From a virus: a DNA stretch of 64,000 bases. The notes below the pieces were generated by a model, which saw only the letters and a list, made by a program, of their open reading frames with translations, made no database searches and was not told the DNA's origin. Within the stretch, counting starts at the first letter, position 1. Every line of letters starts with the position of its first letter. The stretch spans positions 1 through 64,000 of IMG/VR virus record IMGVR_UViG_3300047408_000067, one strand, 5' to 3'. The translations under genes and the position numbers were made by a program. Below, piece by piece: positions 1 to 27,778 of this stretch.

Positions 1-648
1 CTTGAAAAACGGACGGTTGGTAAGACCGCCGCCGAACAGAACGTTTTTGACCGTCTTGCCGTCTGATCCAGTAAACGAGCCAATCTCGGCGCTGAAGTAG
101 CGGTAGATGTCCCGCTCCAACAGGCTGCGACCTGCATCCGTCCACTCGACGTCAGCAAACAGCCCAACGTGGTTCTGCCCGCCTATTTCGCTGGCACCGT
201 GGTGTACAGACTTGAACCATCCCAGCGCCTTGCCTCTATCATGGCCCTCATCAACCATGATGTCGGTTCCGAGCACTCTCTTGTCGAAATTACGCTTGGC
301 AGCACGTAACATCGGCGCTGAGAAGTCCAAATCGCCATACCAGGGATGCTTGAATTTGCCTTCCGGCAAAACAGGTATGCGACTGGTATACCGTCCGCCT
401 TCCTCCTTTAGTACGATTGTTGGTAGTGCGTAGAACTGAGCAATCGTGGCATCGGCAGAGTGCTCAGTACTCTTCTTGCCGATTGCCGTCGGATGTGCCT
501 TCTTCACGGCACCAATGCACGCGATAATCGCATCTTTATCCGAGCCTCCCTTAGCGAGTACTCCGTTTGCTACCCGTATGCACAGGGACTGCGCAGCGGG
601 AGACCAATTCTTGGACGGTCCTGGTGGGTTCTTCTTGCTCCAAGGCAT
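1..648 (-). CDS. Mu I-like phage head protease/scaffold, C-terminus cut by the window edge
   Basis: The reading frame starts at 648 (MPWSKKNPPGPSKNW) one base after the portal stop and stays open to base 1, so the protein is at least 216 residues and incomplete. The stretch ADVEWTDAGRSLLERDIYRY followed by FSAEI and later GGGLTNRPFF resembles the Mu gpI family, serine proteases that mature the capsid and often carry a scaffold at the C-terminus. Its place directly after portal and terminase is the normal order terminase, portal, protease, capsid, so the major capsid gene should lie beyond the left edge. The active-site residues cannot be assigned with certainty here. Confidence 0.75.
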   Translation of the reverse strand, partial: MPWSKKNPPGPSKNWSPAAQSLCIRVANGVLAKGGSDKDAIIACIGAVKKAHPTAIGKKSTEHSADATIAQFYALPTIVLKEEGGRYTSRIPVLPEGKFKHPWYGDLDFSAPMLRAAKRNFDKRVLGTDIMVDEGHDRGKALGWFKSVHHGASEIGGQNHVGLFADVEWTDAGRSLLERDIYRYFSAEIGSFTGSDGKTVKNVLFGGGLTNRPFFK

Positions 649-9628: not shown

Positions 9629-9721
9629 TGATTGCCTGCGCCAGCGAGTTTTCAGTCTTTTCCGAAAGATCGGAAACGTCGTAACCCGCGGAAAGCGCAA
9701 GAATGCCGGAAGTGTCGGAAG

Positions 9722-9798
9722 TTTCGGAAATTTCCGAAATTTCGGACGTTTCGCAAGCGTCGGACATTTCGGAAATTTCCGAAATTTCGGACGTTTCG
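9722..9798. repeat. Two identical 32-bp repeats with internal palindrome
   Basis: Positions 9722-9753 and 9767-9798 are identical over 32 bp, with a 45-bp period. Each contains the palindrome TTTCGGAAATTTCCGAAA and the extension TTTCGGACG. Partial copies (GGAAGTTTCGG, ACGTTTCGGAAACGG) flank them. Centromere-like or origin iteron structure. Confidence 0.75.
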
Positions 9799-9890
9799 GA
9801 AACGGAAAAAACCCTCCCCAGAAACTACCGTCTTTCTGGGGTTTCGGGCCAGAATTACAGAAACTACCGTCCCTCTGGGACTCGCGGCCA

Positions 9891-21226: not shown

Positions 21227-21586
21227 CTAGTGCCGCTTGCCCATAGTATGCAGCATATGAGTGTCCATAGGCAATCCTAGCATGAGTCTTGCCCTGTACA
21301 TGGTGGCTGCTTTCTTGCCCGTGGGACTCAGCCTGCGCTGAAGGTACTTAGTCAAGCACTCTTTACAGCGGCCAGATCCATAGAAGCCCCACACGTCCGT
21401 AGCAGACCCAGGCTTGTATCCCTTGAATCTACCCTTGACCAACACCTTATTCTGCTTCACGGTTTTCTTGCCACAAAGCGTCATACCTTCACGGGCCAAT
21501 ACGTGGCGATTGGTATGGTAGTCCTCGGTCAACATGATGCAGGCACCCTTGAACCCTAGTGCCCAGAGAAGCTGAGTTGGTATCAT
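21227..21586 (-). CDS. Hypothetical protein behind a structured leader
   Basis: 119 residues from ATG 21586 (MIPTQLLWALGFKGACIMLT); a second candidate start is MLTEDYHTNRHVLAREGM. Basic, with C...CKEC, possibly one zinc site. The start lies directly after a strong terminator-like hairpin (21596-21631), so expression may depend on read-through of the structured RNA at 21600-21908. Unrecognised. Confidence 0.55.
   Translation of the reverse strand: MIPTQLLWALGFKGACIMLTEDYHTNRHVLAREGMTLCGKKTVKQNKVLVKGRFKGYKPGSATDVWGFYGSGRCKECLTKYLQRRLSPTGKKAATMYRARLMLGLPMDTHMLHTMGKRH
21245..21274 (-). promoter_or_regulatory. Promoter of the 21199-20069 operon
   Basis: Minus strand TTGCCT, 18 bp, CATACT, preceded by GGA; overlaps the 3' end of the 21227 gene. 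Confidence 0.7.
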
Positions 21587-21595
21587 AATTCCAGA

Positions 21596-21631
21596 CAAAG
21601 AAAAGGGGCGGGGCCTGTCACACCCCGCCCC
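21596..21631 (-). terminator. Terminator or attenuator of the structured RNA
   Basis: Minus strand perfect 9-bp stem GGGGCGGGG/CCCCGCCCC followed by TTTTCTTT. Confidence 0.75.
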
Positions 21632-21908
21632 AATCTCGGCGGAGAAAAGGAGCTAACTCCGCCAAGCCAGAAAGCTCGACGGGGATCGAAGAAGTGTGAA
21701 CAACACCATCCCCGCCGAGCCGCTTGCAGCCCACACCACGTTTTAGATCTCAGTGTTCTGCCCCACAAGATCCTTACAGGGAAGCCCTAGCCCTGACAGG
21801 CCAATAGGCTTATATGCCCCTGCGTCTTCGGGTGTCAGCCCGAAGTCCACATATATAACGCACTCCTAGCCTCGCCGCATGGAGGGAGTGAAGCTCGACA
21901 TGCGGCAT
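21600..21908 (-). ncRNA. Candidate structured RNA of about 310 nt
   Basis: A promoter (21915-21943) predicts a start near 21908 and a terminator lies at 21596-21631. In between, no supported gene but at least four strong hairpins: 8-bp GCCGCATG/CATGCGGC (21874-21906), 7-bp CTTCGGG/CCCGAAG (21826-21845), a 12-bp stem with one G-U (675-686 with 708-719 of the 21 kb block) and GGCGGAG/CTCCGCC (21638-21663). It may be a free RNA or a regulatory leader of the 21227 gene. Confidence 0.55.
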
Positions 21909-21914
21909 GGGCAG

Positions 21915-21943
21915 ACTATACATAGCTTAGGCGTTGTTTCCAA
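21915..21943 (-). promoter_or_regulatory. Promoter of the structured RNA
   Basis: Minus strand TTGGAA, 17 bp, TATAGT. Confidence 0.6.
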
Positions 21944-21952
21944 CGGTCTGCT

Positions 21953-22228
21953 CTAAGCCGATATCACGTGTGGTGGCGGGACAGGCACATGGAAGATGCG
22001 CCCATCCTTATGCTGTATCCTGCGCCCAATGGGCTTGAAACCGCCACGGTTCCACTGGTAGATTGATAGTTCTCTTTCGAAGTTGTGGTCCCAATACGCC
22101 CACGCCTTTTCGTAGTACATTGTGTAGACCACTGGTATCACTCCCTCGCCTAGGGATTTTGGCTTCACTCCAACGACGTACATGCCATCTACCATGTACG
22201 GCCTGTTTTGATACAGGCGTTCTCCCAT
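21953..22228 (-). CDS. Hypothetical protein, 91 aa
   Basis: MGERLYQNRPYMVDGMYVVG, rich in Tyr/Trp/Arg (YYEKAWAYWDHNFERELSIY). GAGGGCA precedes the ATG; promoter at 22279-22308. Unrecognised. Confidence 0.6.
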   Translation of the reverse strand: MGERLYQNRPYMVDGMYVVGVKPKSLGEGVIPVVYTMYYEKAWAYWDHNFERELSIYQWNRGGFKPIGRRIQHKDGRIFHVPVPPPHVISA

Positions 22229-26764: not shown

Positions 26765-27778
26765 TTAGTCGGCGTCCGCGTCCTTGGCTTTCCAGATGCG
26801 GTACGTGCCCGCCTCCTCGTTGTGGCGCATGACCAGGCCCAGGTCGTCGGCGTGGTTGTAAATCCAGCCGATGTTCATGCTGGTGTAGTTCTGGTCCTTC
26901 TCCGACAGCGTGGTCTTGGTCGACTTGGCCCATGCACGGTGCAGGCGCTTCGCTTCCGTAATCACGTTCTCGGGCTTGCCAGCGCCGTCACTGTCGGCCA
27001 GCTCAGCCTTGCTCACCAGTTTCAGCGCCTGATACACGAAGTAGCGCTTGGCACCGATGGTGGACGGGTTACCCCACCCGCTGGTGTCGACCTTCGGCAC
27101 TGCGGCTTTCTTGACCGCGCCGTTGGCCTTCGCCTTGGTTGGGCGTGCCTCTGGCTCGTCCTCTTCCTCGTAGTCCGCAGCCGCACGCTTGGTGCTGGTC
27201 TTGGCCGCGACCTTGGCGACTGCCGCTTTCTTGGCAGGCCGCGTAACCACGACTTCCTCTTCCTCCTCGTCGGGGACTTCGTCCTCGTCGTCCTCATCGT
27301 CCTCGACAACGGGGGCCTTGGCCTTCACTGGCGCGGCTTTCTTGGCAGGCGCAGCGGTGGCTTTCTTGGCGGCGGGGCGCCCGACGACTTCCTCTTCCTC
27401 CTCGTCGTCATCCTCGTCGTCCTCATCATCTTCCTCGTCCTCGTCGTCCTCGTCCTCGACTACGACGCGCTTGGCCGTGGGCTTCGTTGGGGCCTTGGCT
27501 GCGGCTTTCTTGGCTGTGGGCTTGACAACGACTTCTTCCTCCTCGTCGTCCTCCTCATCCTCGTCGCCTTCGTCCTCCCCATCGGTGTCCTCGTCCTCTT
27601 CCTCTGCGTCTTCCTCCTCGTCGGTCTCCTCAGCCGCCCCGCTGGACTGCTCCATTGCTTTGGCGCAATCGGCGTGGTACGGGTCGTCGTCGATAATCAC
27701 TGGCTTGCCCGTGGCGATTGGTTTGTCACACAGCGTGCAAACCACTGGTGTCTTGCTCTTGCTCTTTGCTTCGGCCAT
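26765..27778 (-). CDS. LIM-like zinc finger plus acid/base-repeat protein
   Basis: 337 residues. N-terminal CTLCDKPIATGKPVIIDDDP then YHADC, a LIM/zinc-finger-like unit. Residues 50-225 alternate acidic blocks (DEEDDEEEEVVV, EDEDDEDEEDDEDDED) with Lys/Ala blocks (KKAAAKAPTKPTAKR), like histone H1 tails. A C-terminal domain of about 90 residues (GAKRYFVYQALKLVSKAELA to GLVMRHNEEAGTYRIWKA) looks folded. Probably a nucleic-acid-associated architectural protein; no family assigned. Similar linkers occur at 29019, 47628 and 54348. Confidence 0.65.
   Translation of the reverse strand: MAEAKSKSKTPVVCTLCDKPIATGKPVIIDDDPYHADCAKAMEQSSGAAEETDEEEDAEEEDEDTDGEDEGDEDEEDDEEEEVVVKPTAKKAAAKAPTKPTAKRVVVEDEDDEDEEDDEDDEDDDEEEEEVVGRPAAKKATAAPAKKAAPVKAKAPVVEDDEDDEDEVPDEEEEEVVVTRPAKKAAVAKVAAKTSTKRAAADYEEEDEPEARPTKAKANGAVKKAAVPKVDTSGWGNPSTIGAKRYFVYQALKLVSKAELADSDGAGKPENVITEAKRLHRAWAKSTKTTLSEKDQNYTSMNIGWIYNHADDLGLVMRHNEEAGTYRIWKAKDADAD

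Follow-up and report, generated by a model that had tools for sequence, protein, structure and literature searches.

The phage DNA analysed here, a stretch of 64,000 nucleotides (hereafter the window), carries on its minus strand a conserved structured RNA core of approximately 233-235 nt (21726-21958, read 21958 to 21726), which comparative evidence shows to be a real and hitherto undescribed family of structured RNAs in phages, with members in three independent genomes (the window, G002, and G055). In each of them the core occupies an equivalent position, flanked by the same two genes, and all nine predicted helices, comprising 55 base pairs, are formed in the three sequences without a single mismatched cell. 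We consider it almost certain that the predicted fold is real. Regarding its role, the reading we prefer, to which we give an even chance, is that of a trans-acting or protein-binding non-coding RNA derived from an operon transcript, with a terminator metering read-through into a small basic protein that may be its partner.

Phage genome and related genomes

The window corresponds to bases 1-64000 of a 90,615-bp viral record. A 127-bp direct repeat at both record ends (window 1-127 and record 90489-90615) makes it probable that the 90.6-kb record represents the whole genome. The presence of portal, terminase, baseplate, DNA polymerase, DnaB-like helicase, RecA, and thymidylate synthase genes points to a tailed phage, the tail of which is probably contractile. 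No close cultured phage was found in the collection searched, where the best DNA polymerase matches were ~32% identical. At least one source sample presumably came from soil. The 64-kb window contains no tRNA genes, and five strong terminators were counted in the 90-kb genome.

Among the relatives, one contig (L001) is identical. The only full-length relative found, G002 (L002; its copy of the element also L066), is a complete-looking genome of 90,205 bp, largely collinear with the 90.6-kb record. The third copy of the element, in G055 (L094), is far more divergent than that of G002.

Several other features of the window were recorded. A near-palindrome of ~90 bp (9714-9804) matches its own reverse complement at 77-84%, and a terminator-like hairpin (9841-9816) lies close to it. 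At 25222-25158, a strong minus-strand terminator is followed by a TATACT box shortly ahead of the conserved ATGCACATGGCACA; the arrangement recurs in G002 with TATAAT, and the site possibly functions as a promoter whose transcript has little or no leader. An acidic lysine-/alanine-rich gene (26765-27778) contains internal repeats of ~170-250 bp with 70% identity (27155-27598).

Conservation and distribution of the RNA core

The core shares 80.6% (G002) and 64.9% (G055) DNA identity with the window copy. For G002, identity rises to 90% over the 3' half of the core, and the downstream gene and the helicase gene, at 71-74%, fall below the core. The copy in G055 also lies upstream of the same helicase gene. 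The first covariance model was built from two sequences, those of the window and G002, and it found the G055 copy, which was not part of it, at E ~1e-33, a hit independent of the later choice of helices by eye. The G055 score was 128.3 bits with helix H10 in the model, in place of less supported helices, versus 113.0 bits without it. Model hits to the core reached 272.8 bits for the window, 270.8 bits for L066 (G002), and 210.1 bits for L094 (G055), and nothing above chance was found beyond these three in the model searches. The two-sequence model detected no copy in 49 records that hold more distantly related helicases or polymerases, and a repeat with the three-sequence model in 50 records, several of which were fragments ending short of the locus, returned one 17-nt chance match. 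Polymerase or terminase relatives with 85-90% identity are present as fragments, so further copies are to be expected.

The earlier note had proposed an Rfam search, and its outcome supports novelty: no Rfam 15 family reached its gathering score anywhere in the window, the three homologues searched at E up to 10 gave chance-level hits alone, far below the cut-offs, and the ROOL and GOLLD covariance models found no match. DNA searches of cultured phages detected no copy, and those of plasmids two chance-level stubs and nothing else. Matches to a pattern combining the H4 loop with GGAGTG in other viral contigs and in three prokaryote genomes were dismissed as chance; none of the pattern matches checked with the models (L053-L055, L057, and L099-L103) scored, and the hits in L056 and L059 duplicate that in L054.

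The three homologues have no conserved reading frame in common, in agreement with the earlier claim that the stretch contains no supported gene; the element is thus non-coding. Two coding possibilities were also rejected, namely programmed read-through of the upstream stop codon, as the frame beyond the stop is not kept, and a small open reading frame starting from the conserved RTGGTGTGG, the peptides of which are not conserved as judged by eye.

Predicted fold of the core

The core may be described as a chain consisting of a pseudoknot formed by H1, H2, and H3, the hairpin H4, the loop of which may pair as H5, an H7-H10 unit joined via H8, and the hairpin H11. In H1, GCUUAG (21953-21958) pairs with CUAAGC (21925-21930); this helix forms in all three genomes with invariant sequence, and in each of them its 5' strand includes the UAG (21953-21955) that terminates the upstream gene. 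Hairpin H2 (CGUUG-GAAA-CAACG, 21932-21945) shows changes on both sides in three of its five pairs, reading CAUCU-AGAUG in G002 and CAUCC-GGAUG in G055. Pseudoknot H3 joins GCAGAC (21946-21951) to GUCUGC (21911-21916), with both-side changes in 4/6 pairs; the 5' strand is GCAGGC in G002 and GGUGGA in G055, where the 3' strand is UCCACC. Hairpin H4 (CCGCAUG...CAUGCGG, 21875-21905) varies on both sides in 5/7 pairs (GCUGCCG/CGGCAGC in G055) around a 17-nt loop, UCGAGCUUCACUCCCUC (21898-21882), which is the same in the three genomes except for C/U at its second base. Within this loop, CACUCC (21885-21890) can pair with GGAGUG (21861-21866) to form pseudoknot H5, which is possible in all three sequences and invariant. 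Given that H1 and H5 never vary, covariation neither proves nor refutes them.

Hairpin H7 (CUUCGGG-CUGACA-CCCGAAG, 21826-21845) is CAUCCCG-CUAGGAA-CGGGGUG in G055; three of its seven pairs change on both sides and one more on one side. Its loop CUGACA (21838-21833) is the partner of UGUCAG (21793-21798) in the kissing or pseudoknot helix H8, which has both-side changes in 3/6 pairs and in G055 joins UUCCUAG to CUAGGAA. The 3' strand of H8 is held in the loop closed by H10 (21776-21823), formed by GCAGGGG (21823-21817) and UCCCUGU (21782-21776) in the window and by GGGCCGC/GCGGUCU in G055 (both-side changes in 4/7 pairs). H11 (GAUCU...AGAUC, 21746-21772; both-side changes in 2/5 pairs, GGUCU/AGACC in G055) encloses a conserved loop (UUGYGGG..GAACACUG). 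The invariant motif GGUGUGG (21731-21737), for which CACCAC (21975-21970) is a weak partner candidate, is located at the 3' border of the core; CACCAC might close the core by pairing with GUGGUG (21739-21734), but it lies in codons for conserved prolines. Long unpaired stretches are kept as well, including the H4 loop, UGUGGA, GAACACUGAGA, and GGUGUGG, which suggests that they are candidate contact sites for a binding partner.

Two elements seen in the first two sequences were given up, as the third did not support them: the helix TATATG/CATATA was dropped and the hairpin AGGG-CTT-CCCT was replaced by H10. In G055 only, an 11-nt exact repeat, GTGGACATCCC (L094:2121-2131 and 2224-2234), overlaps H3/H2 and H7 strands and would permit alternative pairing.

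Statistical support for the fold

Over the three sequences, 24 of the 55 pairs change on both sides, including pairs of the pseudoknots H3 and H8. The G055 sequence is the actual test of the model, because the window and G002 are too alike in the 3' half of the core; it forms all nine helices, seven of them with different letters (H2, H3, H4, H7, H8, H10, and H11). Thus, the view of the earlier note that the hairpins could be tested phylogenetically in homologous phages was followed up, and they passed. The third sequence was dinucleotide-shuffled 5,000 times, and a search within 3 nt of each fixed position reached at most five of the nine helices. The helices had been picked by eye before counting, a choice that was not blind and for which the shuffles correct in part. 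Strong folding of the stretch was borne out by z-scores of -4.5 (21910-21596) and -5.3 (21960-21596), with none of 100 shuffles equally stable. Several helices contain G-U pairs, which can pair on the minus strand only and would be A-C mismatches on the other, so the minus strand is taken as the RNA strand.

Variable 3' hairpins, terminator, and promoter candidate

Downstream of the core, the hairpins are very stable and G+C-rich, and they differ in every genome. The window has two, A (21674-21720; 13-nt arms, 92% complementary) and B (21635-21668), which resembles A in sequence, followed by an intrinsic terminator, GGGGCGGGG...CCCCGCCCC UUUUCUUU (21597-21631; 10 pairs, nine of them G-C), with its hairpin at 21631-21605 and a U-tract at 21604-21597. 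The strong terminator postulated before is therefore present. It ends 10 nt before the ATG (21586) of the gene at 21227, with no promoter match in between, which also agrees with the position originally assigned to the element directly ahead of that gene. In G055, two similar 15-bp hairpins follow the core, and the second, with a 37-nt loop, is terminator-like, being followed by CC-UUUUU. G002 has one hairpin without a U-tract and no terminator at this locus. The 3' hairpins (window 21720-21605; L094:2357-2496) look duplicated within each genome, and the strands of the duplicates can cross-pair, which makes alternative folds possible.

The promoter that had been thought to bound the stretch was rejected. 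Its sequence, TTGGAA-17-TATAGT, is a 9/12 match of a quality that occurs at the chance rate (10 found versus 9.8 expected in 20 kb). It falls within the conserved fold, with the -35 within H2 and its loop and the -10 in the linker after H2, and neither homologue has it at the corresponding position. The limits given in the earlier note likewise needed revision: the conserved RNA starts at 21958, upstream of the supposed promoter, the core ends near 21726, and the 3' hairpins of that interval (21720-21605) form the variable part. As to the suggestion of a novel non-coding RNA or leader, the novel structured RNA is upheld by covariation, by the lack of an Rfam match, and by its non-coding character, whereas a promoter-to-terminator unit is unsupported, given the position of the promoter within the fold and its lack of conservation.

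Flanking genes

The upstream gene (21953-22228, minus strand) encodes 91 aa, ends inside H1, and has orthologues in L002 (7-225) and L094 (1847-2119). The downstream gene (21227-21586, minus strand), which follows the conserved core in all three genomes, encodes 119 aa from the ATG (21586) or 123 aa if translation starts at an upstream TTG (21598). Its product is basic (net charge +16, pI 10.2) and contains one conserved CxxC; the two orthologues are 66% and 48% identical to it, with a pI of 10.1-10.3 in all three. The window protein had no match in Pfam, PADLOC, or PHROG and no sequence match to the ToxN, CptN, or TenpN toxin families, and the structure predicted for it, with a mean pLDDT of 45, is not reliable.

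Proposed mode of action

Transcription of the element is suggested by the strand, the G-U pairs, and the terminator. In view of the overlap of the first helix with the upstream stop codon and the lack of a conserved promoter ahead of it, the RNA would be released from a longer operon transcript, either by cleavage or by termination. The variable G+C-rich hairpins would form its 3' end, with a terminator in the window and a terminator-like structure in one of the two relatives. Where a terminator is present, most transcription would stop there, leaving the RNA in excess, and a small amount of read-through would yield little of the downstream basic protein. Terminator-controlled read-through, raised at the outset, thus fits the window and G055 and fails for G002, which has no terminator. 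The RNA itself may act in trans or as an RNA-protein particle, with the basic 119-aa protein as the first candidate partner. We regard this protein as a reasonable candidate, no more: the link consists of protein charge and adjacency, and in collinear genomes the latter carries little weight.

A layout of this kind has been proven for RCd22-AbiF of the Clostridioides difficile phage phi027, in which a structured RNA, a terminator, and a promoterless co-transcribed gene follow one another, the RNA is the abundant product, and read-through meters the protein (PMC12373285). The window shows this order as well, its protein gene following the structured RNA and the terminator and lacking a separate promoter. 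The RNAs differ, however: RCd22 has 132 nt, two short repeated motifs, and its own promoter, whereas the core has neither repeats nor a conserved promoter, and the partner of RCd22 is an Abi_2 protein, unlike the unrelated small basic protein found here (PMC12373285). The core also resembles ROOL and GOLLD, ornate phage RNAs of unknown function, in being phage-encoded and non-coding and in having several pseudoknots or kissing loops and long conserved unpaired stretches; GOLLD, however, often exceeds 800 nt as compared with ~233 nt for the core, and both are often located near tRNA islands, in contrast to the window, which lacks tRNA genes (PMC12286853).

Alternative explanations

The main rival to an RNA acting in trans or with a protein partner is a cis-acting leader, which we consider possible but rather unlikely. 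The core would sense a small molecule, a protein, or RNA polymerase and set read-through at or beyond the terminator, as an attenuator, a riboswitch, or a processive antitermination element; the sensed protein might be the downstream basic protein, resulting in autoregulation. The location of the core directly before a gene in all three genomes, the strong terminator of the window 10 nt ahead of the start codon with no intervening promoter match, and conserved unpaired bases such as those of ligand- or protein-binding leaders are consistent with this. HK022 put provides a precedent of a structured phage RNA acting on polymerase from within a transcript, but it is much simpler, having ~70 nt and two stem-loops, and lies close behind early promoters, unlike the core (PMC9378689). 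Against a leader speak the missing terminator in G002 and the 3' hairpins, which vary freely and are separate from the core. No expression platform coupled to the core was found, the 3' hairpins differing in all three genomes and G002 lacking a terminator; a riboswitch-style core-coupled terminator is thus not general to the family, and the lack of conservation of the hairpins and their separation from the core leave no obvious switching helix between core and terminator. With five strong terminators in 90 kb, a processive antiterminator would have little to read through.

An element for processing or protection is improbable. Its pseudoknots would block ribonucleases at the 3' end of the upstream mRNA or the 5' end of the downstream mRNA, which would suit its site exactly between two genes, the overlap with the upstream stop codon in all three genomes, and the very stable 3' hairpins. 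Protection needs shape alone, however, and would leave unexplained the near-complete conservation of unpaired stretches such as the H4 loop.

A type III or AbiF-like toxin-antitoxin pair, in which the downstream gene would encode the toxin and the RNA would be its antitoxin, is in our view very improbable. The locus has the type III layout of a pseudoknotted RNA, a terminator, and a small promoterless gene, as seen for ToxI, CptI, and TenpI (PMC5086642); the rho-independent terminator expected between RNA and gene is present in the window, terminator-like in G055, and absent in G002. However, type III RNAs are tandem copies of short repeats (PMC5086642), whereas the core comprises three different non-repeated folds, no tandem repeat was found in 21560-22000, and the downstream protein matched by sequence none of the toxin families compared and no Pfam, PADLOC, or PHROG family. 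Finally, a DNA-level element (an origin, packaging, or recombination site) or mere clustering of hairpins by chance, although inverted repeats occur in DNA elements too, is next to excluded by G-U pairs used in several helices on one strand only, by covarying pseudoknots, and by a helix set that shuffles did not reproduce.

Significance

Complex non-coding RNAs with several pseudoknots mostly prove to be catalysts, switches, or scaffolds, and to our knowledge few of them come from phages. A more specific form of the preferred trans-acting or protein-binding reading, which we find quite doubtful, is a compact RNA machine with three pseudoknots that would form a particle with its own basic protein and act in trans on, for example, host RNA polymerase, ribosomes, or a defence system. 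The family described here is an RNA without an Rfam relative, in a lineage without a close cultured member in the collection searched, and its tested structural model makes further members searchable. As a trans-acting molecule, the RNA would join the very few known phage RNA machines; as a leader, it would be a regulator of exceptional complexity.
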